A stretch of DNA of 41,291 bases from the NCBI GenBank assembly GCA_017381865.1, contig JAFOBJ010000034.1:1-41291 (forward strand). The letters run 5' to 3'. Position 1 is the first letter of the stretch, and each line of letters opens with the position of its first letter. A model generated the notes under the pieces. That model was not told the DNA's origin. It did no database searches and saw only the letters and a list, made by a program, of their open reading frames with translations. Of this stretch, positions 15,263 through 31,348 are shown one piece after another. The position numbers were made by a program, and so were the translations under genes. This DNA comes from Bacteroidales bacterium. GTDB taxonomy: Bacteria; Bacteroidota; Bacteroidia; Bacteroidales; F082.

Positions 15263-16483
15263 CTAATCATTCCTGATAATCTTAAATTTTACAGACATAT
15301 CTGGATCTGTAACTATTTCCTCTCCTGGCTTTAGATTGTCGAAAATCAATTGGAATGATTCTCTGTACCAGTCTGTGTATGACGTGAAAATATCTTTGAT
15401 TTTCTCGCTGAGATATGAGTTCCAAGATGTTATGAAATCGTTGTAAAAAGGCGTGTCCGACGGAATCTGTTCTGCCCATTTCTTATAATCTGTGCTGATG
15501 AGATTTTGATACATCTCAGCAATTGCGTTGAATTCGTTAACATCTGAAACAGGTCCTTCTTCAATCTTGATTTTTATTGCTGCAATTTGTGCGTCAATAT
15601 ATTGTGTGGCTTTTGCTAAAATTTCTTTCTCATTGATAGTGTATGTCTTGCCTGAGATATAATGTTTGGTAATTGCGAATGACAAGGCGAAGAGAAGAAT
15701 TAGAATTGTAGAAATAACGATGCTTGTCTTTGTGATTTTCTTTTTCTTGATGTAATTTCTGATTTCGCCAACGGAAGAAAAACGCCTCTCTTTATCTTGC
15801 TGAGCGCATTTGTCTGCGATTTTCTGATATGACTTAGGGAAGTTATTTTTTAAGATGATTCCTAAAGAATAAATGTCGGCGCGACAATCTATTGTGTTGT
15901 TTGGAGTCATCTGTTCAGGAGCGGCGTATTTTCTAGTGCCTGCAGCTTGTTTAAGAATGACGTAATCGTCGGTATCAGAAAGACCGAAGTCGATGATTTT
16001 TACGTTGTTGCCGTTATTTGTGATAAGAATGTTGCTTGGCTTTAAGTCACGATGAATGATTTGTTTTGAGTGAAAATACTCCATCGCATCAAGCAACTCA
16101 TTGAAAATCTTATCATAAAACCCCTTGGTCTGCGTCAGCGTCTGTGTCAGCGTCTGCGTCAGAGTCAGCCCCTCGATATATTCCATCACGATGCAGTCGC
16201 CGAGATTAGGAATATTTTGGAAGTCGATAGTCTTGACGATATTGGGATGGTCTAATGAACGTGATATCTCAAATTCTTTTTTGAGTAAGTCTTGATAGAA
16301 TCTCTCATTTTTGAATTCAGGTTTGAGACCTTTCAAGATGACTTTCTTTCCAAGATATGTCGCAGTATGGAGACTGCTATATCCTTTAGTTTCAATTTCT
16401 TTAATGTCGAAGAAAGAAGACTTTGTTTCTGAATGACAATCTTGAAACACAAAACCTGAACTTGAAATATCGTTGCTGTTCAT
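15263..16483 (-). CDS. membrane-anchored Hanks-type Ser/Thr protein kinase
   Basis: This 406-residue protein has a kinase domain at residues of about 25-230. The key residues are Lys51 (VILK), Glu70, the HRDLKPSN loop (Asp146), DFG (Asp165) and AAPE (188-190), so it should be active. The Gly-rich loop is reduced to GYSS. A membrane segment (SIVISTILILLFALSFAI) follows a Lys-rich linker, and about 140 residues would lie outside the cytoplasm. Residues 109-119 (TQTLTQTLTQT) come from a DNA repeat. The start at 16483 is preferred because an upstream in-frame ATG (16519) precedes the -7 box TACCTTTG (16501-16508). It is divergent from a small DNA-binding-like gene. Target proteins are unknown. 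Confidence 0.88.
   Translation of the reverse strand: MNSNDISSSGFVFQDCHSETKSSFFDIKEIETKGYSSLHTATYLGKKVILKGLKPEFKNERFYQDLLKKEFEISRSLDHPNIVKTIDFQNIPNLGDCIVMEYIEGLTLTQTLTQTLTQTKGFYDKIFNELLDAMEYFHSKQIIHRDLKPSNILITNNGNNVKIIDFGLSDTDDYVILKQAAGTRKYAAPEQMTPNNTIDCRADIYSLGIILKNNFPKSYQKIADKCAQQDKERRFSSVGEIRNYIKKKKITKTSIVISTILILLFALSFAITKHYISGKTYTINEKEILAKATQYIDAQIAAIKIKIEEGPVSDVNEFNAIAEMYQNLISTDYKKWAEQIPSDTPFYNDFITSWNSYLSEKIKDIFTSYTDWYRESFQLIFDNLKPGEEIVTDPDMSVKFKIIRND
16127..16169. repeat. in-frame simple repeat within the kinase gene
   Basis: Near-repeats of GTCTGCGTCAGC, GTCTGTGTCAGC and GTCTGCGTCAGA encode the LTQT units just after the kinase hinge (EYIEGL). The same CAGTCTGTGTCAG word type is found in intergenic DNA at 31349-31441. 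Confidence 0.65.
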
Positions 16484-16500
16484 CGTTGCTGATTTTGGAG

Positions 16501-16508
16501 CAAAGGTA
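16501..16508 (-). promoter_or_regulatory. -7 promoter element for the kinase gene
   Basis: TACCTTTG on the - strand lies 18 bases before the ATG at 16483. No good -33 element is visible; a GTCAACGGACAACAGACAAC-type repeat occupies that place. Confidence 0.45.
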
Positions 16509-16595
16509 AGAAAAGTCAACGGACAACAGACAACGGATAACAGATTTTTCAGAAATAGGGAAAGTAGTCTGTGGTCTTATAAAAAGAATTAAAAA

Positions 16596-16641
16596 GGACT
16601 AATAAGAACCAAATTAGTTCTAAAAAAAGTCTTTACATTTG
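16596..16641 (+). promoter_or_regulatory. promoter with shared upstream box (site C)
   Basis: The box GGACTAATAAGAAC (16596-16609) differs by one base from site A (17318-17331). It ends exactly 24 bases before the -7 element TACATTTG (16634-16641), the same distance as in sites A and B. The -33 position reads CAAAT instead of TTTTG, so an activator may be needed (inference). Confidence 0.55.
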
Positions 16642-16661
16642 CGAAAACAAATAGTTAAGGT

Positions 16662-17228
16662 ATGAAGACAAGTCAAGAAATTATAAAGTTAAAACAACTG
16701 GTTGAAGATTCTATTCCTCGTAAAATAAAGACTCCGGCAGATTTTGTGTATCTTTCTGGTGTTATTTTCGAGAGATGTGGTGAGACGATTTCTGAAACGA
16801 CGCTCAAACGTATTTGGGGATATATAGAAGGTTATGACACAACTCGTTTTCATACGCTTTCTATCTTGGCTAAGTTTGTTGGATATAACGACTGGGACGA
16901 TTTCGTGAAAGAAAACACCGCCGATCCTAACGAGCATTCGGAGGAGATTATGCAGAAATGTATATATACCAAAAATTTAGTTGTTGGAGATAGGATTTAT
17001 TTCACTTGGTTTCCCGACAGAGAATGTCTTGTTGAATATCAGGAGAATAATGTTTTCAAAGTTATAGAAGCGCAAAACAGCAAGTTGCAGAAAGACGATA
17101 GCTTCGTCTGTGGTTTCTTCATCGAAGGGCAGCCTTTATACATGGATGACCTTACAAGAGATGGCGAGACATATGCGATGTTCGTCGTTGGAAAGAACGG
17201 AGGGTTGAAGATCGTGGAGAAGAGGTGA
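16662..17228 (+). CDS. small DNA-binding-like protein of a Bacteroidales family, unknown role
   Basis: This 188-residue cytoplasmic protein has an N-terminal half (KLKQLVEDSIPRKIKTPADFVYLSGVIF, SETTLKRIWGYIEGYDTTRFHTLSILAKFVGYNDWDDFV) that I recognise as a recurrent Bacteroidales helical module. Its TTLKRIWGY...LSILAKFVGY spacing looks like a helix-turn-helix. The C-terminal half is beta-rich (VVGDRIYFTWFPDRECLVEY, GGLKIVEKR) and may be a ligand or protein-binding barrel. It is divergent from the kinase gene and carries the same promoter box as two neighbouring operons, so it is a candidate regulator of the island. That role is inference. Confidence 0.6.
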   Translation: MKTSQEIIKLKQLVEDSIPRKIKTPADFVYLSGVIFERCGETISETTLKRIWGYIEGYDTTRFHTLSILAKFVGYNDWDDFVKENTADPNEHSEEIMQKCIYTKNLVVGDRIYFTWFPDRECLVEYQENNVFKVIEAQNSKLQKDDSFVCGFFIEGQPLYMDDLTRDGETYAMFVVGKNGGLKIVEKR

Positions 17229-17259
17229 TTTGGTTAGGAATTAAGAATTAAGAATATTG

Positions 17260-17285
17260 GGACGTATTTGATACGTCCTTTTTTT
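17260..17285 (+). terminator. rho-independent terminator
   Basis: An 8-bp perfect stem GGACGTAT/ATACGTCC with a 3-nt loop (TTG) is followed by seven T. It ends the unit starting at 16662 and isolates it from the operon at 17394. Confidence 0.85.
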
Positions 17286-17312
17286 GTGTCAGCCAGACAC
17301 GGGTCTCTACAT

Positions 17313-17363
17313 GAAAAGGACTAAAAAGAACTTTTGAAATTACCTTTAGCTTGGTTTAATTTG
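17313..17363 (+). promoter_or_regulatory. promoter with shared upstream box (site A)
   Basis: The box AAAAGGACTAAAAAGAAC (17314-17331) is joined directly to TTTTG (17332-17336), then 19 bases, then TTAATTTG (17356-17363), a near-consensus -7 element. The match to site B continues upstream into GTCTCTAC (17303-17310). The leader to the ATG at 17394 is about 26 bases. Confidence 0.65.
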
Positions 17364-17393
17364 CAAACAGAATAAAAATATAAAATATCGTTT

Positions 17394-17564
17394 ATGAAAA
17401 TTCCTGGATTATCAATTTCGCTGAAACGTGCAGTTGGCATCAGCGGGGTGAAAAACAAAGTGGCTAAGAAACTGGGTGTTCCGACAACCAAACAAGGATT
17501 GGAACGTAAAATCGGCGATGCAGTCATCAGTGCTGTGGTAGGCAAAAAGAGAAAACGTAAATAA
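17394..17564 (+). CDS. 56-residue basic protein, first gene of the lipoprotein/TerB operon
   Basis: This short gene encodes a protein starting MKIPGLSISLKRAVGISGVK and ending VVGKKRKRK, with about 16 Lys/Arg and almost no acidic residues. It has a promoter 31 bases upstream, ends 6 bases before the next ATG, and shows normal codon use, so I regard it as real. I recall similar small MKIPGLS...KRA.GI...PTTKQG.ERK proteins in Bacteroidales, with no known function. The high charge suggests binding to nucleic acid or membrane surfaces; this is inference. Confidence 0.7.
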   Translation: MKIPGLSISLKRAVGISGVKNKVAKKLGVPTTKQGLERKIGDAVISAVVGKKRKRK

Positions 17565-17570
17565 GACGGT

Positions 17571-18848
17571 ATGAGAAAGTTTTTCTATATATTCATTATC
17601 TTGTTGTTAGTCAGTTGTGATAATGATAAGATAAAGTTGTCGGAAGAAGAGATGCTTCGATACAATACCACACTGCAACAAATTGAGGAGGTCGAGAAAC
17701 TTTATGCCAAAGCGGAAAGATACAAAAACAATGGTTCTTTGGCTCAGCTGATGGAAATGTCGGAGTCTCTTGCATATGACTATAATGATAAAGGAATGAA
17801 TCATGTGACGATTCAATATTGCGATTCTTTGAGGGATAGAGTGGTGAAACTGAAATCAGATTGCAAGGACTTTTACGAACATACGATAATTTCATCAGGA
17901 AAGATTGACTTGATGAATATTCATAACAATCTTATTGAAGGAACGGTGACATATCCGGTATATCTTAATCAAGGAGAGTTGCTGTTTTATAACGTAAGGT
18001 CAGAAATATCATCATCGGTAAAGATTTATAATTATGACGCTCGCAGAATGATGAAACAATATGCTAATCGTCAGAATGTAAACGATTCGTTAAGAATCAG
18101 TTTTTCTGGAATATATCTTATAGAAATAATTCCTGGTGGGAGTCAGTATTGTTCAGTTGACATCGCTTGCCGTCCTTGTAATGCGAAGGATATTTATTAT
18201 CGTCCTGAAATCAAATCAGAGGTGGTGGCTTGTAACAAAGGTGATTTTGGTTATAAGGCTACGCAAGGAGTTAAGATGTATAATTGTTTTGATGAAGCAA
18301 GGAAATTCACTCTTAGAGGACAGCTTAAAGCGGTTTTCTCAGGAGCATCCACAGCTTTGGTGGCGGTTCAGATTCCATCAAATGCAACAGACATACTTTA
18401 TTCTTTACGAATTGCTACGAGCGAACAGGACCGTTCTTCTGATGGTGAATTCTACGACGACCTGACATATTCTTACAGTAAAATAAAGTTTCTGGGCTTG
18501 CCTATCTATGAAAGAAGCAAAAGTAACGGCTTGTTGAAGACTTTGCTCGACGACAATCGCCCTATTCGTGAAGAGGACGCATATTGCAATATGTATGTGT
18601 TTAGAAACACGACGCAGGCAAAGCAATTTCAAGATGGAACGAAGAAAGCGTCTGAGTTGAATTACGATGTGGATTATTCAACACTCGGCACGCAGTCGTG
18701 TAACGGAAGAGTACCTGTCAATGGCTTGAAAACAATATACCTCGCCTTTGAAAACGAAAGAGTGAGATATACCAATTACATCTGGGTGGAAGCAGTGGCA
18801 ATTGTTCCTGTTACAGAATATCACAAAACAGAATATACAATTCAATAA
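17571..18848 (+). CDS. lipoprotein of unknown function
   Basis: This 425-residue protein has a lipoprotein signal (FFYIFIILLLVSC, Cys16). Residues of about 22-110 are helical, with heptad-like spacing (LRYNTTLQQIEEVEKLYAKAERY...LAQLMEMSESLAYDY). The rest is beta-rich, with two repeats of similar layout (LLFYNVRSEISSSVKIYNYD and CNMYVFRNTTQAKQFQDGT) and several Cys. No enzyme motif was recognised. It lies between the small basic protein and the TerB-like protein and is probably co-transcribed with both (gaps 6 and 27 bases). It may be the envelope arm of a system that the kinase or TerB-like protein senses. Confidence 0.65.
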   Translation: MRKFFYIFIILLLVSCDNDKIKLSEEEMLRYNTTLQQIEEVEKLYAKAERYKNNGSLAQLMEMSESLAYDYNDKGMNHVTIQYCDSLRDRVVKLKSDCKDFYEHTIISSGKIDLMNIHNNLIEGTVTYPVYLNQGELLFYNVRSEISSSVKIYNYDARRMMKQYANRQNVNDSLRISFSGIYLIEIIPGGSQYCSVDIACRPCNAKDIYYRPEIKSEVVACNKGDFGYKATQGVKMYNCFDEARKFTLRGQLKAVFSGASTALVAVQIPSNATDILYSLRIATSEQDRSSDGEFYDDLTYSYSKIKFLGLPIYERSKSNGLLKTLLDDNRPIREEDAYCNMYVFRNTTQAKQFQDGTKKASELNYDVDYSTLGTQSCNGRVPVNGLKTIYLAFENERVRYTNYIWVEAVAIVPVTEYHKTEYTIQ

Positions 18849-18875
18849 ATAAACAAACTTTAAAATTTAAGTGTT

Positions 18876-20159
18876 ATGGCAATGGAAGAAAATAAAACTA
18901 TTACGGCGAACGAACAACTTGAAAAATTGATGGATATGGCATTGGTTGACGGTATCTTAACCGACAAAGAAAGAGAAGTGATAATGAAGAAAGCTCAGAC
19001 TTTAGGAATTGATGCAGATGAAGCCGAGATGATATTGGAAGCAAAAGTTTATGAATTTAATAATAAAGACACACGAAATAAGGCTGAAACAAAAACGCAG
19101 ATACAAAACCAGAATGTTTTTAGGGTAAATGAAATCTTTTCTACTAACACTGCCCATTTTAGAGAATATAAAAAACTTGTAAAAGAAGAGTATTCTATTC
19201 ATAAGGTTATGGGCTTTAGGAGTAATAAAATACATATTAGTGATCAAGAAAAAAATGAATTTGAGCGTAGAAAAAGCGAAATTATTACGAAAAAATTCGA
19301 AAATTATCTTATGTCTGTCGATTTTAAGGATGAAACGGAACAAATGACAATGCTTAATTTCCTTTTTGAATTATGTTCTAAAAAAGACAAAATTTATGAG
19401 TATACTTGTCCAATAATAATAGATAATGCTGAGAAGATACTAAATCCAATAAATCCTCAAAACTTTTCAGATATAATGAGCACATTGGATATTTTGTGGA
19501 AGTTATATCCTGGAAAAAGTGTGCTTCCCCAAAGACTTGATGAAAATATCTCATCGAGGATTATAAAACTTATTAATAACGTCTTTCCTGAAAATGAATC
19601 TGAGGTGTTGGAAGCATTAGATGTTCTCTTAAAGTTCCTCCCAAAGGTGGCTGAAGAGGTTGATGAAATCAAATCAACAGCCATATCAAAAATAAAGGAA
19701 GTTATTAAAGAAGCAAAGGTAAACTTTGGTGATAATGAATGTATTTTGGAAAAGATAAAAACAGTGACTGATGAATTCAGTAATCTTGTTGAATTGTATA
19801 AACAAGCTGCTAAATCTGAAAAGAAATATAAAAGAGCATTGAAAATATATAATTTTTTAAAAATCTTTTGTACAGTGTTGTATGTAATTCTGGTGGCAGC
19901 TTATATATATGGAGCATATTTTATAGGTGATTGGGTCTGGGGTGATGGCAGTGATGCTAAAGTTTTTGGACAGATAATAAGAATACTTGGAATCATTATG
20001 GCTGAATTCGTGTATAATCTTACAATCATTATTATCATTTATGGTATTTTCGAGTTGTTTGGTGAGCCTTTTAGTATTGATTCTCTTATGCCAAAATGCC
20101 CAGAAGGAAAAATAATTTATGCTGAGAAATATATTCCATTATTTAAATTAGAAGCATAA
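18876..20159 (+). CDS. TerB-like domain membrane protein
   Basis: This 427-residue protein begins with a TerB-like module (residues of about 10-55: EQLEKLMDMALVDGILTDKEREVIMKKAQTLGIDADEAEMIL), an acidic, probably metal-binding helical domain known from tellurite/stress-response proteins. A long helical charged region follows (EYKKLVKEEYSIHKVMG ... EVDEIKSTAISKIKEVIKEAK). Two membrane segments lie near the C-terminus (FLKIFCTVLYVILVAAYIYG and IIRILGIIMAEFVYNLTII). It is therefore an inner-membrane protein with a large cytoplasmic head. It is last in its operon and followed by a strong terminator. TerB domains often occur near kinases and phosphatases, which fits the kinase gene here. Confidence 0.7.
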   Translation: MAMEENKTITANEQLEKLMDMALVDGILTDKEREVIMKKAQTLGIDADEAEMILEAKVYEFNNKDTRNKAETKTQIQNQNVFRVNEIFSTNTAHFREYKKLVKEEYSIHKVMGFRSNKIHISDQEKNEFERRKSEIITKKFENYLMSVDFKDETEQMTMLNFLFELCSKKDKIYEYTCPIIIDNAEKILNPINPQNFSDIMSTLDILWKLYPGKSVLPQRLDENISSRIIKLINNVFPENESEVLEALDVLLKFLPKVAEEVDEIKSTAISKIKEVIKEAKVNFGDNECILEKIKTVTDEFSNLVELYKQAAKSEKKYKRALKIYNFLKIFCTVLYVILVAAYIYGAYFIGDWVWGDGSDAKVFGQIIRILGIIMAEFVYNLTIIIIIYGIFELFGEPFSIDSLMPKCPEGKIIYAEKYIPLFKLEA

Positions 20160-20184
20160 CTATATTTATTTTACCTTAATAAAA

Positions 20185-20228
20185 ACACAAAGGCGTCATT
20201 TTTACAGTGACGCCTTTAGTGTTTTTTT
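20185..20228 (+). terminator. rho-independent terminator of the TerB-like operon
   Basis: A 14-base arm ACACAAAGGCGTCA pairs with TGACGCCTTTAGTGT (one bulged base), has a 9-nt loop and is followed by seven T. Confidence 0.85.
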
Positions 20229-20249
20229 GTTACATACATGTATAGTAGT

Positions 20250-20288
20250 GTGCTAATCTATGCGTAAGACAATATTGACATGTCTTTA
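20250..20288. repeat. 39-bp direct repeat, copy 1
   Basis: The copy begins GTGCTAATCTATGC and ends TTGACATGTCTTTA. It matches 21116-21154 at 34 of 39 positions without gaps. The two copies flank the coiled-coil gene (20296-21078). Confidence 0.8.
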
Positions 20289-20295
20289 TATACAT

Positions 20296-21078
20296 TCATT
20301 TTCTGTTATAAATAAACTTCATTATAGGAGCAAGGAAGTTATTTTTGCAGACACAATAAAAAGCGAAATTGTTCTTATAGACCTCAAATTCTTTATATGT
20401 CTGTTCTTTAATCTCCATTTTTATATTGGAAATATTAGTTGATTTTTTGTCATAGGTATTCTTGTCTTCTTCTATTTCCCGCTCTAGTTTAAGTGCTCCC
20501 GCTTTTACATTTTCAATTTCTTGCAACTTCTCTTCATATAGAACAACTATTGGTTTTTTTGCTTCAGCTTTCGCTTTTGCTTGTTCATAGCGTTCCTCTG
20601 CTTTGCTTATTACACCATCGGTCTTTTCTCTTAATTCATCAATTTTCTTTTCTGCAAGATCGTAGAATTTCTCATATTCCTTTTTTAATTTCCTATCCAC
20701 TTTTTTATCCTCTCCATAATAATTCTGCCACTTATCATACAAAATCTCGCACTTTTGATTCATGGTTTCTTCAAGAGCCTTAAGCTTGTTTTCTTGTTCC
20801 GCTTTTATACGTTCATATCTCTCTTTTTCTATTGATAGTTTTTCGAGAGCTTCTTCGTAAGCTTTTAATTCAGATTCTTTTTTTGCTTCCTTTTGTTTTT
20901 CAATTTGCTCAGATAATGTCTGAACTTTTTCCATTAATGAATTCTGATGTTTGTTGTAGGTGTCTAAACGTTCTTTCTTTTTCTTATACAGAGATATGTA
21001 TTCCATATCTCTGTATATCTGGTTATTTGAATTTATACGTTTTTGTATAAGCTCTTGAATCATTTTTTCTCTATCCAT
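20296..21078 (-). CDS. coiled-coil protein, unknown function
   Basis: This 260-residue protein is almost entirely predicted coiled coil from residue 10 to 230 (runs of Glu/Lys with regular Leu/Ile, e.g. LSEQIEKQKEAKKESELKAYEEALEK and YEKFYDLAEKKIDELREKTDG). The C-terminus is short, aromatic and Cys-containing (NFAFYCVCKNNFLAPIMKFIYNRK) and could be a membrane or partner-binding tail. The start MDREKMIQEL is preferred over an ATG 33 bases upstream. The gene is bracketed by 39-bp direct repeats, so it may be a unit inserted into or duplicated within this locus. No function is inferred. Confidence 0.7.
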   Translation of the reverse strand: MDREKMIQELIQKRINSNNQIYRDMEYISLYKKKKERLDTYNKHQNSLMEKVQTLSEQIEKQKEAKKESELKAYEEALEKLSIEKERYERIKAEQENKLKALEETMNQKCEILYDKWQNYYGEDKKVDRKLKKEYEKFYDLAEKKIDELREKTDGVISKAEERYEQAKAKAEAKKPIVVLYEEKLQEIENVKAGALKLEREIEEDKNTYDKKSTNISNIKMEIKEQTYKEFEVYKNNFAFYCVCKNNFLAPIMKFIYNRK

Positions 21079-21115
21079 AGTCTTTTGTGTTTTATGTCTC
21101 AAAATAAGCAAAGAC

Positions 21116-21154
21116 GTGCCAATCTATGCATAATACAATGTTGACACGTCTTTA
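21116..21154. repeat. 39-bp direct repeat, copy 2, with hairpin
   Basis: This copy begins GTGCCAATCTATGC and ends TTGACACGTCTTTA. Together with the preceding bases it forms an inverted repeat AAAGACGTG/CACGTCTTT (21110-21118 with 21145-21153), so it can fold as a hairpin. The word TTGACACGTCT recurs at 24203-24213. Confidence 0.8.
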
Positions 21155-21165
21155 ATGGAAAACTT

Positions 21166-21342
21166 TTATTTTAGAGTTTTCTTGTGGGCTTGTAGTCTTG
21201 CGATATCACCTTTGAGGCCTGCAATTTGAGTTTTTTTCATCCCCTTGTCCCCAAGGTGTATGCCAGCTTGTATTCTTGCAATTTCAGCTTTTTTGTTGGC
21301 AATTTCTCTTTCGCATTCTGCTTTTGTTGATGGCATTCCCAT
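21166..21342 (-). CDS. 58-residue helical protein
   Basis: This small gene lies 3 bases after the stop of the GNAT-like gene and is in the same direction, so it is the fourth gene of the operon. The protein (MGMPSTKAECEREI...) contains two similar helical segments, ANKKAEIARIQAGIH and AGLKGDIARLQAHKK, separated by GDKGMKKTQ, which suggests a two-helix hairpin. It ends KKTLK. The pattern has affinity with the heptads of the LRR gene tail in the same operon. No family is recognised. Confidence 0.65.
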   Translation of the reverse strand: MGMPSTKAECEREIANKKAEIARIQAGIHLGDKGMKKTQIAGLKGDIARLQAHKKTLK

Positions 21343-21345
21343 GAT

Positions 21346-21915
21346 TTAATGTGTTTTAAAATTATGCCTACTCTTTATAGGATTTTCGGCTTGTTCCTTT
21401 TTTAATTTTTTGTTAATTCTCTTATATATTTCAGATTTGTGTAATCTTTCTCTAGAAATCCAGAGGTAATGGTAATTCTTTGAAGAATAGTATTTTATAA
21501 ACCCTATGCTGCGGTTGAAGCGCATTGCTATGTCATTGTCTAATTCACAAGCGGTTCTTACTTTGATTCCGTTTTCAAGCATTGTATCGATAAGCAATAT
21601 ATAGGCATTGTAGTTTAAAAGTGTGTTGCCTGAAATCCAGCCTCCGCCATGTAAAGAGACCTTGAGGTTTTTCTCATCTTCAATGTATGCGTAAATGAAT
21701 CCGAATGGCTTGTTTGTTTTCAGATTATATGATACATAACACTGGCCGCAATCATAGCTGAGTAATTTTTCTAATCCATGAATATCTGATATGTCTGAAA
21801 AGATTCTCTTCCAGTCAGACTCTTTAAAAGAATCTATCAAGGACTCTGTTGAGCGGCATCTCCATTCAACGAGTTCGTTTTTAGCATCAAGTCCTGTCAA
21901 TAAATCCTTTATCAT
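21346..21915 (-). CDS. GNAT-like acetyltransferase-fold protein
   Basis: This 189-residue protein has a central region that looks like a GNAT fold: KPFGFIYAYIEDEKNLKVSLHGGGW (strands 3-4) and NAYILLIDTMLENGIKVRTACELDNDIAMRFNRSIGFIKYY, the last part matching the usual N...A..F...GF end of GNAT proteins. The acetyl-CoA loop is not canonical, so activity is uncertain. The basic C-terminal tail (INKKLKKEQAENPIKSRH) may bind nucleic acid. Three-base gaps on both sides show tight coupling with the nuclease-fold gene and the 58-residue gene. Confidence 0.6.
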   Translation of the reverse strand: MIKDLLTGLDAKNELVEWRCRSTESLIDSFKESDWKRIFSDISDIHGLEKLLSYDCGQCYVSYNLKTNKPFGFIYAYIEDEKNLKVSLHGGGWISGNTLLNYNAYILLIDTMLENGIKVRTACELDNDIAMRFNRSIGFIKYYSSKNYHYLWISRERLHKSEIYKRINKKLKKEQAENPIKSRHNFKTH

Positions 21916-21918
21916 TTT

Positions 21919-23442
21919 TTAAGCTTTTTCTGTTTTTATTCCGTAATGTTTCTCAGCATAGTCAGACAACGTCTTGAAATCATCAATGACTTCGTTGCCG
22001 ACTTTACGATTAGACCAGAATTTCAGTGTCATGACTTTGACACCATTTAAAACAAGATGATATTTTTCTGCTAAATCTCCCTTGTAAAAATCCCATTCTA
22101 TATATGCTCTCTCTGGGAATTTTTCAGTGTCGTCGGTATATTTTATCCTATTTTCTGCGTCATATTCATAAAATAGATATTGATATACTTTTTCGTAATG
22201 ACTTGCACATTCGTTGACAGGAAAGGCATTTCTTAGGTCAGACAAAGTTGCATTTGGATTTTGCTCAGCCCAAGCTTTGAAAATGTAGAAAGAGGCGATG
22301 CTCTTAGGAACGGCTTTGACATTTCCTTTGTTGTCGGTTTCGTTGATAGTCACGCCATTGTTGTTGATTACAATGTATTTTACATTATCGCGGTTGCTTG
22401 CTTTTATATCGAACAACTTTTTAAGGCTATCGTTCTGGTTGCCTTCGTTTTCATCCTCATTGTCGAATTCTTTTCCATATAAATATATTATACGAAGCAG
22501 CATTTTGTTGGTATCCCAAAAAGAAGAAAGCAAGGATTCGCAATTATTGTCCTTAATACTTTTTCTGATGTTGCTAAGATTGTCCCTGAAGATGTTTTTT
22601 AATTCCACTTTTTTGTTATAATAAGCTACCATTGAAGAATTTAGCAAATCATCGTATCTCATTAGCAATTCTGAGAATGTTTTCTTGTTTTTCTTTGAAA
22701 CTGCTAATATTGTTTCCAGATTGCTCATTTTTCCATTGTCGTCAATCTGTTTTTTAGCCTGGCCGAGATTTATGATATAATCTTCCAATATGATTTTAGT
22801 GTCGGTGTCCATTTCCATATTCAACAATGGTTCGATGACATGTTCTAAAACATCTTGGTAAGTGATTATGAAATAATTGGCAATTTCGTTCTTCTCGTTT
22901 TCTGGATAAGGAGTCAGATAAATAGGAATTATGATGCTGTCTTTGTATTCCTTTTCAGCCCAATCCTTGTATGTCGTAGTTTGGTCATCGTGATGCTTCG
23001 AATCAACTTTATTCTCTATGATGACGATAATATCCTTTTTGAAATCTTTTTCAGAATTTTCTTTGAATATGTTGAATTTAGCGAAAATGTCGATTCTTCC
23101 TTTGTTCTTATCACTTTCGACGGCTTTTTCCGTCTCAATATGAAAGTCTTGTATCTTATAATCTCCAATCAAAAGGATGTTTAGAATGTCTTCGTTGAGA
23201 ATGTTATTGTTATCTGTATTTACCAGCATTCGTAATAACTTTTTCAATGGCTCTTCGTCAAGGTTATGGCTGCCGTTTATGTCGAGTAGCCATTTGAGGA
23301 ATGCACTATGAGAAAGCTCTCTTCGCTCAATATTCATTATATTGAAGATAGTAGTTCTATTATAATATGAATTGAGCCTCTGGAAATCAGAGTCGTTATA
23401 AAACTTTATTATTTGGCTTCTCATAGAATTGTTATTATGCAA
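21919..23442 (-). CDS. PD-(D/E)XK nuclease-superfamily protein (PDDEXK_4-like)
   Basis: This 507-residue protein has an N-terminal ELSHSAFLKWLLD motif, followed by the catalytic core of the PD-(D/E)XK fold. The core has Asp118 in GRIDIF, then Glu143-x-Lys145 in VIIENKVDS, then Gln154 and Tyr158 in DDQTTTY. This order is characteristic of the PF14281 family, whose members occur in many bacterial accessory and defence regions. The C-terminal half (EWDFYKGDLAEKYHLVLNGVKVMTLKFWSNR) is beta-rich. It is the second gene of a - strand operon, 6 bases after the LRR gene. DNA cleavage is inferred from the fold only. Confidence 0.78.
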   Translation of the reverse strand: MHNNNSMRSQIIKFYNDSDFQRLNSYYNRTTIFNIMNIERRELSHSAFLKWLLDINGSHNLDEEPLKKLLRMLVNTDNNNILNEDILNILLIGDYKIQDFHIETEKAVESDKNKGRIDIFAKFNIFKENSEKDFKKDIIVIIENKVDSKHHDDQTTTYKDWAEKEYKDSIIIPIYLTPYPENEKNEIANYFIITYQDVLEHVIEPLLNMEMDTDTKIILEDYIINLGQAKKQIDDNGKMSNLETILAVSKKNKKTFSELLMRYDDLLNSSMVAYYNKKVELKNIFRDNLSNIRKSIKDNNCESLLSSFWDTNKMLLRIIYLYGKEFDNEDENEGNQNDSLKKLFDIKASNRDNVKYIVINNNGVTINETDNKGNVKAVPKSIASFYIFKAWAEQNPNATLSDLRNAFPVNECASHYEKVYQYLFYEYDAENRIKYTDDTEKFPERAYIEWDFYKGDLAEKYHLVLNGVKVMTLKFWSNRKVGNEVIDDFKTLSDYAEKHYGIKTEKA

Positions 23443-23448
23443 ACACTT

Positions 23449-24069
23449 TTAATTTTTAAAAAGATTAGAAAAGAAACCAGAATTCGATTTTTGATCGTTG
23501 GTTTTATATTTAAGATCTGCTATTTCGTTTTTAAGGTTAGTTATTTCGTTCTTAAGATCGGCTATTTCGTTTCTAATTTCCAAGAATTCGTCGTTAGAGT
23601 TTGCTGTGGTTTCAGATTTTTCAGAGCTTGAATTAAGTCTTGGATTTTCTGATATATTCTTGAACTGTCCCCATAGTGGATGGTTTTTATAAGTGTTTAA
23701 AGCACCTTGAGGAACCATTAAAATATCGAAATCTGATATGCCAACAAGCTTTCCAAGCATAGGGGGAATTTTGCTTTTCAATGCAATGACTATTTTATTA
23801 CTATCGGTACCATATTTTCCACAACCTTCTATTTTTGTTATTGATTCAACGCTCGCTGGAATAGTTAAATTACAGCCGTAGATATTTCCTATAGAAATAA
23901 TCGTATCTGGAATTATTATTCCAGTGCAATTAAATATGCTGCCAATAGAAATGTAATCATTAGGAATAACTATACCGTTAGCTTCACTGATTGAGTCAAT
24001 AGAACTGCTTTTGCCCAAATAGAAGCTAAATTCACTGTAATGATGTTCTCCGATTTTTATATTTGCCAT
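23449..24069 (-). CDS. leucine-rich-repeat (BspA-like) protein with heptad C-terminus
   Basis: This 206-residue protein has LRR_5/BspA-type repeats (GIVIPNDYISIGSIFNC, GIIIPDTIISIGNIYGC, LTIPASVESITKIEGC) and the typical BspA closing motif (VPQGALNTYKNHPLWGQFKNI). Unlike surface BspA proteins it has no signal peptide, so it should be cytoplasmic. The tail is a short coiled coil of exact 7-residue repeats (NEIADLK, NEITNLK, NEIADLK). It leads an operon with the PD-(D/E)XK nuclease, the GNAT-like protein and a 58-residue helical protein. LRRs could serve as a recognition module for that nuclease (inference). Confidence 0.72.
   Translation of the reverse strand: MANIKIGEHHYSEFSFYLGKSSSIDSISEANGIVIPNDYISIGSIFNCTGIIIPDTIISIGNIYGCNLTIPASVESITKIEGCGKYGTDSNKIVIALKSKIPPMLGKLVGISDFDILMVPQGALNTYKNHPLWGQFKNISENPRLNSSSEKSETTANSNDEFLEIRNEIADLKNEITNLKNEIADLKYKTNDQKSNSGFFSNLFKN
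23509..23571. repeat. three tandem 21-bp units in the LRR gene
   Basis: Units at 23509-23529, 23530-23550 and 23551-23571 all end TATTTCGTT and encode NEI-x-x-LK heptads. Because 21 is a multiple of 3, copy number can change without a frameshift. Confidence 0.8.
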
Positions 24070-24106
24070 AATTTTTAAGTTTTAGTTTATAAGAAAAATG
24101 TTTCTG

Positions 24107-24156
24107 CAAAAGTCAAGGTTTCTTTTTACATATCAAAAGTTCTTTTTGGTCCTTTT
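24107..24156 (-). promoter_or_regulatory. promoter with shared upstream box (site B)
   Basis: On the - strand AAAAGGACCAAAAAGAAC (24156-24139) is joined to TTTTG (24138-24134), then 19 bases, then GACTTTTG (24114-24107). It matches site A in sequence and spacing, and the match goes on upstream into GTCTCTAC (to 24166). The leader to the ATG at 24069 would be about 33 bases. Confidence 0.6.
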
Positions 24157-24158
24157 GC

Positions 24159-24288
24159 GTAGAGACGCGTCGAACACACAAATGAAATAAAACAAGGAGT
24201 GTTTGACACGTCTTGATGGGATAATATAACGAGAGACGTGTCAACAACCTCTTTTTATATTTTTATGGTGTTGTCGACGCGTCTCTAC
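24159..24288. repeat. nested inverted repeats (REP/BIME-like element)
   Basis: The outer pair is GTAGAGACGCGTCGA (24159-24173) with TCGACGCGTCTCTAC (24274-24288), perfect over 15 bp. The inner pair is TTGACACGTCT (24203-24213) with AGACGTGTCAA (24234-24244), perfect over 11 bp. The arms resemble each other. The element fills most of the gap between the LRR gene and the GH97 gene; no gene is seen in it. Confidence 0.8.
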
Positions 24289-26684: not shown

Positions 26685-26975
26685 ATGACTACTCTTAAAG
26701 TATGCGTCGGCAGTTCATGCCATTTGAAAGGTTCTTACGATGTTATCGAAGCCTTTAAGGAAATATTAAAAAAATATGATGTAGAAGACGTTGTTGATCT
26801 TCAAGCTAGTTTCTGTCTCGGTTTCTGCGCTAAAGGCGTTACCGTAAAAACAGAAGGTTTCGACGAACCAACAGTTCAAAAACTCGGCGAAGACTGCCTC
26901 TTCATCCATAACGTAAACAAAGATAACGCAGAAGAACTCTTCGCAAAAGAAGTTTATCCTTTGTTAGGTTTATAA
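26685..26975 (+). CDS. [2Fe-2S] thioredoxin-fold ferredoxin, NuoE/HydC-like
   Basis: This 96-residue protein has the four cysteines of the NuoE-type [2Fe-2S] centre: Cys7 and Cys12 (C-x4-C in VCVGSSCHLKGS), then Cys44 and Cys48 (C-x3-C in FCLGFCAKG). It lacks the N-terminal helical part of full NuoE. In bifurcating hydrogenases a similar subunit passes electrons between a NuoF-like subunit and the hydrogenase, but no NuoF-like gene is present here. It is the first gene of the cassette, 39 bases before the HydS-like gene. It probably delivers electrons to, or senses redox state for, the following proteins. Confidence 0.83.
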   Translation: MTTLKVCVGSSCHLKGSYDVIEAFKEILKKYDVEDVVDLQASFCLGFCAKGVTVKTEGFDEPTVQKLGEDCLFIHNVNKDNAEELFAKEVYPLLGL

Positions 26976-27014
26976 TCTAAAACATAATTTCGTCGATTTT
27001 TAATTTTAAAAAAC

Positions 27015-28736
27015 ATGGCGGATTATCTAGAATTTAAAAACGCTAAGTGTAAGGACTGCTACAAATGTCTTCGTGAGTGTCCTGTCAAAGCTATCGAGGT
27101 CAAGAATCATCAGGCTAGAATCATCGAGAGCCGTTGTATCTTGTGTGGTCATTGTACCTTGATATGTCCTCAAAATGCTAAGATAGTTCACAGTTCTTTG
27201 AACGAGATAAAGCAGATTCTTAACAGTGGCACAAAAGTCGTTGCAAGTGTTGCACCGTCGTTCCTTTCAAGTTTTGGCTTAAAGGATTTTAACGTATTTA
27301 AAATTGCCTTGGCAAAAGTCGGTTTCTTCGATGCAGAAGAGACTGCTTACGGAGCAGAGCTTGTGACACAGCAATATAAGGCTTTATTAGAGTCTAAACA
27401 ATTCAAGAATTTCATCACATCGGCATGCCCTGCAGTGTGCCGCCTCATCCAAGCTTATTATCCAAAGGCATTGCAATATCTTGCTCCTGTCGACTCTCCA
27501 ATGATAGCTCACGCTAAGATGTTGAGAAAACAGCATCCAGATGCAAAAGTCATCTTCATCGGACCTTGTATCGCCAAGAAACGTGAGGCGATAGAAAGCG
27601 GCATCATCGACGGCGTCTTGACATACGACGATATGCAGGAATTGTTCGCAGAAAAGAATATCGTTCTCGACGAAATTATCAACATTTCTTTGGAAAATAA
27701 GAAAGGCACAGCTTGTCTGTCAAAGGCTTATCCTATAAGCCACGGCATCATCAAGGCGTTTCCTGAACTTCCAAAAGGTTACGACTATATGGCTGTCGAC
27801 GGTCCTGACCGCTGCGTCGATGCGTTGCAAAACATCGACAACCTCGAGAATGTATTTCTTGAGATGAATATCTGTAAAGACGGCTGCGTCAATGGCCCTT
27901 GTAGCCTCAGCGTCAATATCAAAGGTGGTAGCATCAAGGCGACTTCAGATGTGTTGAAATATTATAAAAACGACATCAGGACTTTGGCTCCTCATAAATA
28001 TGAAGAGCACGATATAGACCTTAATAAATTATATCCTCGCATAAGAAACAACAGCATGCCGCCACCGGAACGCGAGATTAAATGTATCTTGGCGAAAATC
28101 GGCAAACATAAACCTGAAGACGAACTTAACTGCTCGGCTTGCGGTTACGACACTTGCCGCGATAAGGCTTGGGCTGTGTATAACGGCTACACCGACGCTG
28201 AGATTTGTCTCCCATATATGCGCGAACGTGCTGAGTCTCTTTCTTATGAAATCATTCAGCATAGCCCTAACGGTATCATCTTGTTGGATTCTGATTTCTA
28301 TATCCAAGATATTAACGATAAGGGTAGAGAACTCCTCGGCATCAACGACCCTCACGCTGAAGGTCGCCACGCTAAAGACTTCTTCAACCTCACCGACTTT
28401 ATCATAGCTTATAACGAAAAACGTAACGTTATGGTAGAGAAGATGTTCGTTCCATCAACAGGTAAGTACGTCGATATGGCGATAACTTATCTTAAAGATC
28501 AGAATATGCTGTTTGGCATCTTGATGGATGTCTCTAACCAAGTTAATTACGATATGGAAATTAATAAGGTAAAGATGGAGACATTGAAGACTACCGACGA
28601 GGTTATTAAGAAACAAATGCGTGTGGCTCAGGAGATTGCGTCACTTCTCGGCGAGACAACAGCAGAGACAAAAGTCGCTCTCTTGAAATTAAAGAAGACA
28701 CTTTCTGACGAACGTATAGAGAAAGGAGATAAGTGA
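27015..28736 (+). CDS. HydS-like [FeFe]-hydrogenase homologue with PAS domain (putative H2/redox sensor)
   Basis: This 573-residue protein has two N-terminal [4Fe-4S] motifs (Cys12-15-18-22 and Cys41-44-47-51). The H-cluster domain has its four ligand cysteines (Cys138 in TSACP, Cys185 in GPCIAKK, Cys287 and Cys291 in ICKDGCVNGP). A further Fe-S motif follows (Cys373, 376, 381, 398 in NCSACGYDTC...EIC), then a PAS domain (about 412-515) and a short helical tail. The usual proton-relay Cys before the first ligand is Ala137, as in sensory group C enzymes. High turnover is thus unlikely, and a sensing role passed to the PP2C protein encoded next (overlapping stop/start) is the best reading. Confidence 0.82.
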   Translation: MADYLEFKNAKCKDCYKCLRECPVKAIEVKNHQARIIESRCILCGHCTLICPQNAKIVHSSLNEIKQILNSGTKVVASVAPSFLSSFGLKDFNVFKIALAKVGFFDAEETAYGAELVTQQYKALLESKQFKNFITSACPAVCRLIQAYYPKALQYLAPVDSPMIAHAKMLRKQHPDAKVIFIGPCIAKKREAIESGIIDGVLTYDDMQELFAEKNIVLDEIINISLENKKGTACLSKAYPISHGIIKAFPELPKGYDYMAVDGPDRCVDALQNIDNLENVFLEMNICKDGCVNGPCSLSVNIKGGSIKATSDVLKYYKNDIRTLAPHKYEEHDIDLNKLYPRIRNNSMPPPEREIKCILAKIGKHKPEDELNCSACGYDTCRDKAWAVYNGYTDAEICLPYMRERAESLSYEIIQHSPNGIILLDSDFYIQDINDKGRELLGINDPHAEGRHAKDFFNLTDFIIAYNEKRNVMVEKMFVPSTGKYVDMAITYLKDQNMLFGILMDVSNQVNYDMEINKVKMETLKTTDEVIKKQMRVAQEIASLLGETTAETKVALLKLKKTLSDERIEKGDK

Positions 28737-29896
28737 TGGAGTTGTGTTTGGAATATGGATGTACCTCGGTGAATAAGTTCGGCGAAGAACTCTGCGGCGA
28801 TAATGTCGTCAGCATGGTCGACGGCGACTATACCACATTGGTGCTCGCTGATGGTCTGGGCAGCGGCGTGAAAGCTAACATTCTTTCCACCCTTACCTCA
28901 AAGATTTTATGCACCATGGCAGCCAATGGCATCGACATCGACGAATGCGTCGAGACTCTCATCCAGACATTGCCGGTATGCCATGTGAGAGGCGTCGCTT
29001 ATTCCACATTCTCATTGATACGCGCTAACAACGAAGGACGAGGTTTCCTATATGAATTCGATAACCCTCAGGCAATATATTATCATAAAGGTAAATGCAC
29101 TGATTTCCAAAGAGAAAAACTGGAGATATGCGGTAAAACTGTTTATAAGTCAGAACTGAATCTTGAGGAAAATGACGTTATCATGGTGATGTCTGACGGC
29201 ACAGTTCACGCTGGCATCGGACAGATTCTTAACTTCGGATGGGAACGCAAACAAATCATGGAACATCTCGACAGAAACCTGAAACCAACGATGTCGGCAA
29301 GAGCGATGGCATGTGTCCTGACAGCAGCGTGCAATGACTTGTATCTCGACAAACCAGGCGACGATACAACAGTGGCAGCGGTGAAGATACGCCCTCGTCT
29401 TAACGTCAGCATCATGGTCGGTCCTCCTGTCGATAAGGAAAAAGACAACTTCTATGTGGAACGTTTCATGGAAGGCGCAGACAAGACTATCGTTTGCGGC
29501 GGAACGAGCTCTCAAATCGTGGCTCGTTATCTCAACAAACCGCTTCGCACTAGCTTCGACTTCCCTGATAAAGACGTGCCGCCAATAGGTTTCATTGAAG
29601 GCGTCGACCTTACAACAGAAGGCGTCCTCACATTACGACGACTCCTTGACCTCTCGGAGAAATATCTCTCTCTTAACGACTTAACACCAAAGACATTCAC
29701 AAAACAAGATGGTGCTTCTCTCTTGGCAAATATACTTTTTGAAGAAGCAACACATATAAAATTCTTCGTGGGACAAAGTGTCAACGTGGCTCACCAAGGT
29801 CTGCCAATCGACATCACCATGAAAATGAAACTCGTAGAGAAACTCGCAGAAAATATGCGTTCTATGGGTAAGATAGTAACATTGAATTATGATTAA
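28736..29896 (+). CDS. SpoIIE/PP2C-type serine phosphatase
   Basis: This 387-residue cytoplasmic protein has the PP2C metal sites: GDN (Asp22), ADGLGSG (Asp39), SDGTVHAG and GDDTTVAAV. This is the order found in SpoIIE-like phosphatases. A C-terminal region of about 150 residues (IMVGPPVDKEKDNFYVERFMEGADKTIVCGGTSSQIVARYL) is of a type seen with hydrogenase-linked phosphatases and may bind a ligand. The start ATG overlaps the previous stop (TGATG) behind a strong AAAGGAG, so it is coupled to the HydS-like protein. It would relay the sensor state by dephosphorylating a partner; no anti-sigma-factor gene is visible nearby. Confidence 0.83.
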   Translation: MELCLEYGCTSVNKFGEELCGDNVVSMVDGDYTTLVLADGLGSGVKANILSTLTSKILCTMAANGIDIDECVETLIQTLPVCHVRGVAYSTFSLIRANNEGRGFLYEFDNPQAIYYHKGKCTDFQREKLEICGKTVYKSELNLEENDVIMVMSDGTVHAGIGQILNFGWERKQIMEHLDRNLKPTMSARAMACVLTAACNDLYLDKPGDDTTVAAVKIRPRLNVSIMVGPPVDKEKDNFYVERFMEGADKTIVCGGTSSQIVARYLNKPLRTSFDFPDKDVPPIGFIEGVDLTTEGVLTLRRLLDLSEKYLSLNDLTPKTFTKQDGASLLANILFEEATHIKFFVGQSVNVAHQGLPIDITMKMKLVEKLAENMRSMGKIVTLNYD

Positions 29897-29905
29897 TTTA
29901 AAGAT

Positions 29906-31348
29906 ATGAGCACAAACAAAAGAGTTTTTGACACAAACGTACAAGTTGTAAAGTACAACGTTTTGAAAGAAGTTATCCGCCGTGCATACGAAGGCGGTTT
30001 GGAAGAAGCATATTATGAAATTCCTAAGGTGATATGCCCAGGTCCAAAACCTCAAATCCGTTGTTGTATCTACAAAGAAAGAACTATCATCCAAGATAGA
30101 ATCAAATTGGCAATGGGTGGCGACAAAAACAACCCTAACCCAGTGGAAGTCATCGACATCGCTTGCGACGAATGTCCAGCAGAAGGCGTAATGGTAACAC
30201 CAGCATGCCGCGGTTGTATGGTCCACGCTTGTCAAGAAGTATGTCCTAAAGGCGCTATCTCAATCGTAAACAAACGCGCTGTCGTCGACAAAGAAAAATG
30301 TATCGAATGTGGTAAATGTTCAAAGGCTTGTCCTTACTCAGCAATCATCATGCAACATCGTCCATGTATGGTAAGCTGTAAAGTGAAAGCTATCACCATC
30401 GATGAAAATAAAAAAGCTAAAATCGACAACGACAAATGTATCTCTTGCGGTGCATGTGTTTACAAATGTCCTTTCGGCGCTATCTCAGACAAATCATACG
30501 TTCTCGACATCATCGATATGTTGAAGAAATCTGAAAACAATACTAAGTATAAAGTATACGCTGTCATAGCTCCAGCTATCGTAAGTCAATGTCGCTTCGG
30601 CAGACCAACACAGGTCGTTACAGCAATCCAAAAGCTTGGTTTCCACCAAGTTGTTGAAGCAGCTCTCGGCGCTGACATCACATTATACCACGAAGCATTA
30701 GAATGGAAAGAAAAAGGTTTGATGACAACATCATGCTGCCCATCATACGTTGCTTTCATTGAAAAGAACTTCCCAGAATTAGTTCAACATATCTCACACT
30801 CAGTATCTCCAATGATTTTGACAGCTCAGATGATTAAACACTCAGACCCAACAGCTAAGTGTATCTTCATTGGACCATGTGCTTCAAAGAAATTCGAATT
30901 CAAATTGCCAAAGACAGGCGGTGCTATCGACTGCGTAATGTCATTTGAAGAATTACAAGCATTCTTGGATGCTCGCGGCATCGACACTGTTGAATGTGAA
31001 GACACTGTATTAGACAACGCTTCATTCTACGGAAGAATCTTCGCTAAGTCAGGCGGTATCGTTCAAGGTCTCCTCGACGTAGCTAAAGAACTTAACGTTG
31101 AAGGTCTTAAACCAATCGTGATGAGCGGCATCGACGAATGTAAAGCTAACTTGATGAAGCTTAAATTCGGCAAGGCAACAGAAAACTTCTTCGAAGGTAT
31201 GGCTTGCGAAGGCGGCTGCTTGAACGGACCACTCTGTATCACACACAGCCCTCGTAACATCGTCGACGTTGATAAGTACGGTAACGAAGCAAAAGAAAAG
31301 ACAATCCATAATTCTGTTAAGTTGTACGAAATGACAACGAAAGAATAA
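29906..31348 (+). CDS. [FeFe] hydrogenase, group-B-like, monomeric
   Basis: This 480-residue enzyme should couple ferredoxin oxidation to H2 release in the cytoplasm. The N-terminal part has Cys-rich Fe-S sites (Cys132-135-138-142, Cys154/158, Cys178-181-184-188). The H-cluster motifs are complete: TSCCPSYV with relay Cys277 and ligand Cys278, GPCASKKFEF with Cys325, and MACEGGCLNGP with Cys434 and Cys438. The Tyr in place of Trp after TSCCP and the layout of the N-terminal Fe-S sites fit group B rather than the classical group A enzymes. It is last in the cassette, 9 bases after the phosphatase. The maturation genes hydEFG are not in this window. Its codon use is strongly biased, so it is probably highly expressed. 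Confidence 0.87.
   Translation: MSTNKRVFDTNVQVVKYNVLKEVIRRAYEGGLEEAYYEIPKVICPGPKPQIRCCIYKERTIIQDRIKLAMGGDKNNPNPVEVIDIACDECPAEGVMVTPACRGCMVHACQEVCPKGAISIVNKRAVVDKEKCIECGKCSKACPYSAIIMQHRPCMVSCKVKAITIDENKKAKIDNDKCISCGACVYKCPFGAISDKSYVLDIIDMLKKSENNTKYKVYAVIAPAIVSQCRFGRPTQVVTAIQKLGFHQVVEAALGADITLYHEALEWKEKGLMTTSCCPSYVAFIEKNFPELVQHISHSVSPMILTAQMIKHSDPTAKCIFIGPCASKKFEFKLPKTGGAIDCVMSFEELQAFLDARGIDTVECEDTVLDNASFYGRIFAKSGGIVQGLLDVAKELNVEGLKPIVMSGIDECKANLMKLKFGKATENFFEGMACEGGCLNGPLCITHSPRNIVDVDKYGNEAKEKTIHNSVKLYEMTTKE

Follow-up and report, generated by a model that had tools for sequence, protein, structure and literature searches.

Genes of the locus

The present analysis concerns a window of 41,291 nucleotides (the whole stretch of DNA that was analysed, contig JAFOBJ010000034.1 of assembly GCA_017381865.1) from a Bacteroidales bacterium, whose assembly comprises 2.1 Mb in 99 contigs and is 79% complete. 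Ten genes of this window, named here g1 to g10, were studied, and the locus is probably one instance of a common Bacteroidales switch in which a kinase and a regulator govern an exchangeable payload. The ten open reading frames had been listed in a preliminary description made from the letters of the window, and all of them were found to be present.

The gene g1 (15263..16483, minus strand) encodes a Hanks-type Ser/Thr kinase of 406 aa with one transmembrane (TM) segment, and it is divergent from g2 (16662..17228, plus strand), which encodes a predicted DNA-binding regulator of 188 aa. The plus operon follows with g3 (17394..17564; basic protein, 56 aa), g4 (17571..18848; lipoprotein) and g5 (18876..20159; TerB-like N-terminal domain and two TM segments), the intergenic gaps being 6 and 27 bp. 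Head-on to it lies the minus operon, which reads from g10 (23449..24069; short BspA-type leucine-rich repeat (LRR)-like protein with a coiled coil at its C-terminus) through g9 (21919..23424; PD-(D/E)XK nuclease), g8 (21346..21915; 189 aa, called GNAT-like in the preliminary description) and g7 (21166..21342; helical-looking, 58 aa) to g6 (20296..21078; coiled-coil protein), with gaps of 24, 3, 3 and 87 bp.

Pair of kinase and predicted regulator

In the Pfam profile search g1 was matched by Pkinase at E=1.2e-37. The catalytic motifs HRD144, DFG165 and APE188 are present together with one hydrophobic segment (aa 253-271) and an outer part of ~130 aa, and by these motifs, profile and topology g1 is a Hanks-type transmembrane Ser/Thr kinase of predicted activity, in agreement with the membrane kinase proposed earlier. 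In a set of 70 loci (60 stretches fetched around g2 or operator hits, pooled with ten earlier loci), 53 of the 62 g2 genes have a kinase gene no more than 700 bp away, and for seven of the nine kinase-less g2 genes a contig ends less than 500 bp off. The same distance holds for 67 of the 82 g2 genes in 80 named g2 loci, which overlap the former set through many of the same contigs. Distinct g2 genes were obtained from 144 profile hits, reduced to 141 by a profile-start filter and a requirement for at least 120 bp upstream, and then to 102, distinctness being judged on the last 100 bp; 86 of these 102 have a kinase within 800 bp. Gene starts in the comparison loci come from simple open reading frame calling, not from a gene finder.

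The 86 pairs are mostly divergent (65), with 16 on the same strand and five convergent. The paired kinases have a single hydrophobic segment past residue 230 in 79 cases and none in the remaining seven, and the catalytic HxD is kept in 83 (66 HRD, 13 HND, 3 HGD, 1 HSD). Their length is 300-649 aa in 60 of the 86 and at least 650 aa in 22.

By reading, g2 consists of a helix-turn-helix (HTH)-like N-terminal domain (aa ~5-90), a variable linker containing Ser93, and a C-terminal domain; the protein itself belongs to no Pfam or NCBIfam family. It is present at 107 places in 66 of the 99 congeneric genomes searched, and a single scan of the GTDB genomes gave 138 confirmed stretches, of which the 80 listed come nearly all from metagenome-assembled genomes of Bacteroidales/Bacteroidia, many of them from gut and rumen. 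One further record, filed under uncultured Fibrobacter sp. (L209), carries a g2 that stands near a Bacteroidales copy (L184) on the tree and is possibly a bin contamination. No relatives of g2 were found in viral contigs, where 23 pattern matches were all unrelated, nor was g2 found in phage records, and the plasmid search gave one weak match of 26.7% identity, so mobility is unproven.

In a phylum-wide sample of 295 other genomes, 19 gave matches to the N-terminal domain inside larger proteins, which fits a mobile DNA-binding domain without proving one. Eleven of such larger proteins were fetched (L231-L241), and in seven of them one TM segment stands behind the g2-type domain; this arrangement suggests membrane-bound one-component regulators.

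The linker residue Ser93 (codon 16938..16940, plus strand) is a candidate phosphorylation site. Of 106 distinct g2 sequences, 105 have Ser at this position and the remaining one has Thr (0.08 bits), while the rest of positions 83-100 reach 1.6-3.7 bits; the residue was spotted in the alignment and then counted, so the figure is post hoc. Thr47, Thr65 and Thr147 are likewise nearly invariant, but they lie inside conserved domains. Phosphorylation at Ser93 would be the simplest reading of this conservation, since the kinase is the genomic partner of g2.

Operator sites

The promoter element shared in the window is a 17-bp direct repeat, AAGGACYAANAAGRACY, and the operator core AAGGACTAAAAAGAACT is composed of two half-sites with a 10-bp period. 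The copies upstream of g3 and g10 (17314-17340 and 24130-24156) are 27 nt long, inverted and 93% complementary. The operator of the plus operon, AAGGACTAAAAAGAACT, is at 17316..17332 (plus strand) and is followed by TTTTG / TAATTTG, which we take to be a Bacteroidetes-type promoter; that of the minus operon, AAGGACCAAAAAGAACT, is at 24138..24154 (minus strand) ahead of g10. A related copy stands ahead of g2 at 16594-16610, within an array in the g1/g2 intergenic region (16584..16610, plus strand) in which the half-sites GAATT, GGACT and GAACC follow at 10-bp steps. The coordinated promoters of the preliminary description are real as judged by sequence comparison, and far above chance. The two operators form inverted repeats that bound the g3-g10 block, and recombination between them could flip or exchange such cassettes.

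Exact operator copies were found in two related loci (L021 and L023) ahead of operons of the same genes, and in a third (L025) the nuclease and a lipoprotein-like gene are each preceded by AAGGACCAACAAGGACT, and g2 by AAGGATTAAAAAGGACT. In the 99 congeneric genomes exact AAGGACYAAMAAGRACT sites number 39 against five for the reversed pattern, and the wider pattern AAWGRACYAANAWGRACY gives 67 sites against six. Of 76 distinct operator sites in these genomes, 53 are no farther than 16 kb from a g2 place, where ~1.0 would be expected, the 16-kb stretches around the 107 g2 places making up ~1.3% of the sequence; the count is 53, 52 or 50 with the full list of g2 places and two E-value cuts. At the level of whole genomes, where 66 of the 99 have g2, it is present in 37 of the 39 operator-bearing ones (Fisher p=6.6e-7).

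Of the 102 distinct g2 upstream regions, 56 contain half-sites paired at a distance of 10 bp (66 pairs), and no pair was seen there at spacings of 5-9, 11 or 13. Fifty-eight genes of at least 60 aa carry a 10-bp pair within 200 bp upstream, one of them being the g2 copy of a second locus, and the majority are either less than 10 kb from g2 or on a short contig.

The half-sites exist in GG and GA variants, and the operator class, taken from the first operator match per region, is the same at g2 and at the cargo promoters nearby in 30 of 38 comparisons (uncorrected for relatedness), against a shuffle mean of 18.2 and with none of 10,000 shuffles reaching it. One locus (L097) has two g2 genes 13 kb apart with unlike operator classes, and the cargo operator beside the first is of the first's class.

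A putative recognition-helix residue which tracks the half-site G/A is Thr46 of g2 (codon 16797..16799, plus strand), within ISETTLKR, a segment resembling such a helix. Residue 46 stood first by entropy-corrected association of g2 columns with operator class, a ranking that is post hoc as the best of all ranked columns. At their own promoters all 39 GG-class g2 sequences have Thr46, and 15 of the 17 GA-class sequences have Ser46. Cargo sites with Thr46 are GG/GG in 21 cases, mixed in seven and GA/GA in four (all four in L091); those with Ser46 are GA/GA in 15 and GG/GG in one (L155), and the single Asn46 case is mixed. When own and cargo sites were pooled, residue 46 was consistent in 61 of 64 rows.

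Conservation and arrangement of the ten families

Co-occurrence of the families was searched by tblastn at E<=1e-6. The preliminary description had taken co-occurrence of at least four of the ten as support for a system, and, the window aside, eight distinct loci show it: L021 has eight families, L023 has six (seven at a laxer cut), and L025, L116, L121, L153, L174 and L198 have four each. The contigs of L025, L116 and L121 appear a second time as L167, L183 and L195. L174 is titled Paludibacteraceae bacterium and L198 Candidatus Gallipaludibacter merdavium. The opposite case, that the families occur independently, holds for the greater part of the cargo, since 108 of the 143 loci with any match have just two of the ten families; g1 was found in 125 loci and g2 in 139. 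The 149 comparison loci include some duplicates and were chosen mostly for holding g2, hence such counts gauge the variability of cargo, not the independent occurrence of the families. By this comparison the core is the kinase, g2 and the operator, and the remaining genes are exchangeable cargo.

The flank genes at 26685-31348 are found next to the island in L021 and L023 as well. Relative to this flank, the g3-g10 block of both loci runs opposite to that of the window, and the g1-g2 orientation is kept in L021. Two features of the island were considered and dropped. A dispersed repeat at 16500-16549 was rejected as a regulatory element, being an intergenic repeat of GACAACAGACAACGG type that lies beside unrelated genes in four other contigs. 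AT-richness was rejected as a mark of foreign origin, as the G+C of the island (0.30-0.38 per kb) is like that of the left flank (0.32-0.40), although most of the right flank has a different composition.

Cargo genes

The lipoprotein g4 has the lipobox LVSC, read from the sequence, and this part of the preliminary description is upheld. Homologues of g3 were found in eight of the 149 loci (duplicates included), and g3 and g4 recur as a pair, often adjoining. Six of the 99 congeneric genomes have g4: in four it is at most 9 kb from g2, in G011 it stands between two operators, and in G022 neither g2 nor an operator is near.

The description of g5 as a TerB-like membrane protein is borne out by its relatives and topology, with 44-67 N-terminal residues showing 41-56% identity to TerB-type proteins of five other loci and two TM segments, but its profile matches (PF05099 at E=0.048, NCBIfam DjlA at E=1.4e-4) are weak and below the cut-offs. 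Matches to g5 were obtained in nine of the 99 genomes, most of them to the N-terminal domain alone; TerB was for this reason dropped as an anchor of the system and is regarded as cargo, not core.

The nuclease g9 is well supported by PDDEXK_4 (E=1.1e-19, 71.6 bits against a cut-off of 22.3), by the PADLOC candidate profile PDC-S26 (E=6.4e-30) and by the active-site residues RID...ENK, so that both the profile and the D...ExK arrangement of the predicted PD-(D/E)XK nuclease are in place. It was matched in 13 of the 99 genomes; the five best matches (window, G011, G009, G018 and G057) are within ~11 kb of g2 or between operators, and none of the weaker ones is within 16 kb of g2.

For g10 no LRR profile match of its own was obtained, yet a homologue in L027 matches LRR_5 at E=2.2e-4, under the cut-off. 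The GNAT assignment of g8 gained no supporting profile match, the family being absent from its Pfam, NCBIfam and PADLOC listings, though g8 may be a remote member. Homologues of g7 are present in L021 and L023, and g6 was seen in the window alone, with none in the 149 other loci. In L027 (9465-10739, with 4Fe-4S matches) and L029 (9856-10950) a TerB-type domain and a g10-like segment are joined in one protein, and this fusion links two cargo families of the window.

Other cargo found near g2 includes PvuRts1I-like, KAP, GIY-YIG, YhcG, SPFH and DUF4230 genes, and there are also loci with small KVKTLK-type proteins, with LRR proteins or with large proteins that look secreted. The KVKTLK genes were noticed in L121, L096, L026, L024 and L138, often several per locus, with the start pattern KVKTLKxxFxxxFGxxLRVYKG, which is reminiscent of a ubiquitin-like fold. 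The few members scanned matched no Pfam family except for TerB in a long one, and some of these genes stand behind a DUF805b RNA. In L094 (4480-6593), L095 and L149 an operator precedes an uncharacterised protein of 194 aa, behind which a radical-SAM/SPASM protein follows in L094; judged by its operator, this protein is another recurrent payload.

The DUF805b cis-regulatory RNA (Rfam RF02914) of the window is at 21365..21399 on the minus strand (44.5 bits, cut-off 35.6), 22 nt ahead of the g7 start codon and overlapping the end of g8. It has the same position in L021 and L023, and KVKTLK genes follow it in L027 and at one of its two sites in L121. When above-cut-off matches are counted (128 sites), 34 lie within 16 kb of g2 where 1.7 are expected (34, 33 and 33 with the full list and two E-value cuts). 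The RNA was nevertheless rejected as a mark specific to this system, for it is found in 76 of the 99 genomes, 91 of the 128 sites are near neither g2 nor operator, and the genes downstream are diverse. At 20 other places it usually lies ~20 nt before the start codons of diverse genes, and on that ground it may be a general translation leader.

Comparison with known systems

AfsK-AfsR and PknH-EmbR are pairs of a Ser/Thr kinase and a transcription regulator, in which the regulators have FHA and SARP domains and are not known to have exchangeable cargo. The window resembles them in that a Hanks kinase is proposed to control a transcription factor, and differs in that g2 is in no Pfam or NCBIfam family and has the conserved linker serine. 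A kinase-regulator pair is what g1 and g2 appear to be by comparison, as adjacent genes with a common operator. A two-component system in the strict sense would have a histidine kinase and a receiver, while here a Pkinase protein stands beside a protein without family.

The Ter-dependent stress response comprises TerB together with TerC/TerD/TerY-type genes. The TerB-type domain and the kinases nearby are reminiscent of it, but TerB is weak here and no TerC, TerD or TerY was found among the ten proteins. The PADLOC profiles of the defence kinases PD-T4-6, MAD6 and Stk2 match g1 (1.3e-39, 1.2e-38 and 3.7e-26), a likeness made of kinase-domain matches; with PD-T4-6 it does not go beyond the kinase domain (protein 38-212 against profile 24-202 of 292). 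Unlike these kinases, g1 has a TM segment with an outer part and g2 as partner. As regards MADS, g1 scores 87.1 bits where the NCBIfam cut-off for MAD6 is 460, and no methyltransferase family is among the ten.

That the locus resembles no nameable system, as first described, is borne out insofar as no description of the kinase-g2 pair was found in open-access titles and abstract openings (weak evidence of novelty), but a nearest analogue exists in RptR. According to the accessible portions of PMC12255303, RptR is a small (9 kDa) autoregulatory repressor of an E. coli defence island which binds a direct-repeat array in its promoter, the sites being 9-bp repeats with a palindromic TAGCTA core that overlaps the -10 box. 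Common to both are the small autoregulatory regulator (predicted here), the defence-type island and the direct-repeat array; here the repeats are of 10 bp and of WGRACY type, they precede the promoter elements, and the regulator has a kinase partner, while those portions of the article mention no kinase partner of RptR. The NTP-dependent conflict systems (Kaur et al. 2020, PMC7159879) are described, in the parts of the text available, as modular, present in Bacteroidetes and in some cases equipped with a GYF domain; TerB is not mentioned in those parts and SPFH occurs in the reference list alone. Modularity and occurrence in Bacteroidetes are shared, as far as that portion of the source goes, but no such core is in the window.

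Interpretation

What the comparison of genomes establishes is the pairing of g1 with g2, the operator, its linkage to g2 and to cargo, and the agreement of the variants. From this the following mechanism is proposed. The outer part of g1 would sense a signal, upon which g1 would phosphorylate g2, most likely on the linker Ser93, and phosphorylation would presumably activate rather than repress. The regulator g2, the probable reader of the operator, would bind the direct repeat of 10-bp period with half-site WGRACY just upstream of promoters, its targets being its own gene and one or more cargo operons, which would be switched in this way; in the window these would be g3-g4-g5 and g10-g9-g8-g7-g6. 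The cargo of the window may be a stress or anti-phage payload. The phosphorylation-controlled system put forward earlier is in this form supported, by sequence, as a genomic module, but not as a block of ten genes. Still further, and tentatively, with somewhat more doubt than belief, the module could be a Ser/Thr-kinase counterpart of two-component systems, in which the one-TM kinase would phosphorylate Ser93 of a dedicated regulator family, an operator code (Thr46 for GGAC, Ser46 for GAAC) would insulate paralogous pairs of one genome, and strain-specific payload cassettes bounded by operators, many of them nuclease or defence-like, would be exchanged under the pair as a plug-in controller.

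Several observations weigh against the kinase-regulator switch. For 16 of the 102 distinct g2 genes the surrounding 800 bp hold no kinase gene. Among the 15 kinase-less g2 genes in the 80 named loci, 11 have at least 2.9 kb upstream in which no kinase appeared at the cut-off used. No reliable Pfam match, HTH families included, was obtained for 59 g2 members, and a PDB profile search with g2 gave three chance-level matches and no relative of known structure. The 10-bp half-site pair, in the pattern used, is lacking from 46 of the 102 g2 upstream regions, pairs also occur at spacings of 12 (three pairs) and 14 (four pairs), in three regions each, and the 10-bp pair is found in 43 of 1,427 other upstream regions of the same loci, many but not all of them cargo. 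Of the operator sites in congeneric genomes, 23 of 76 are not within 16 kb of g2, and the class agreement may partly reflect relatedness.

As for residue 46, its raw mutual information (0.680 bits) is about level with that of residue 149 (0.689 bits), and the association amounts to 4-7 changes on the tree with 2-3 well-supported independent pairs. These pairs nearly always go in the same direction; with so few of them the phylogenetic sign test, from which one Asn46 row was excluded, is unable to reach significance (median p 0.5). Exceptions are L091 (Thr46 with four GA/GA cargo sites), L121 (Thr46 with a GA/GA own site) and L155 (Ser46 with a GG site). The conservation of Ser93 could also be structural.

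An unlikely though serious alternative is a dedicated anti-phage island, in which the kinase, LRR protein and lipoprotein sense infection, the nuclease and TerB act as effectors, and g2 is a repressor. The matches of g9 to PDC-S26 and of g1 to PD-T4-6 speak for it, and a defence role of part of the cargo is suggested by the PDDEXK_4/PDC-S26, PvuRts1I-like, KAP NTPase and GIY-YIG families, with YhcG also present in related loci. Nuclease, KAP, TerB or KVKTLK cargo is moreover found in 25 of 60 short-kinase loci against one of 22 long-kinase loci (Fisher p 0.001). However, the other 35 of the 60 have none of this cargo inside 10 kb (some being cut by contig ends), and the kinase matches, as said, span the kinase domain alone. 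The genes behind operators include lipoproteins, LRR proteins, large secreted-looking proteins and unknowns, and other g2 copies carry secreted or LRR proteins in place of defence-like cargo. One locus (L024) has g3, g4 and TerB with PvuRts1I, KAP and DUF4230 but neither g2 nor operator in 19 kb, and the near absence of g2 from phage, viral and plasmid sequences points the same way.

About equally doubtful is an envelope or surface-stress response, in which the outer part of the kinase would sense envelope damage or a ligand, the lipoprotein, LRR and TerB proteins would remodel or repair the envelope, and the nucleases would be incidental passengers. The one-TM topology of the kinase and the lipoprotein-like, LRR and large secreted-looking proteins directly behind operators are in keeping with it, as is the adjoining of SPFH-type and TerB genes in L025, L026 and L028, whereas the prediction of several nucleases or NTPases among the cargo speaks against it.

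It is considerably less probable that another regulator or a sigma factor binds the operator, g2 being a partner or effector whose own gene is one more target. Two of the 39 operator-bearing genomes are without a g2 hit, g2 has no recognised HTH family, and its binding is deduced by comparing sequences, all of which leaves room for such a factor. The linkage of operator to g2 in genomes and in loci, the agreement of operator classes, the different classes of the two g2 genes in L097, the association of residue 46 and the reuse of the HTH-like domain elsewhere argue instead for g2. A chance neighbourhood of unrelated genes in a variable region, to which the unique g6 and the varying cargo sets would conform, is hardly credible, being already contradicted by the shared operators, the g1-g2 pairing and the eight distinct loci with at least four families.

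Significance of the findings

The probable kinase-regulator switch, with g2 in 66 of the 99 congeneric genomes, is a common module. A kinase-regulator pair with a defined operator would allow the regulon of an uncultured genus to be read in part from sequence and unknown genes to be predicted as payload. The linker serine, the association of residue 46 and the 17-bp site make each step of the mechanism directly testable. If the reading is true, variable defence-like or surface cargo would be under inducible control in gut Bacteroidales.

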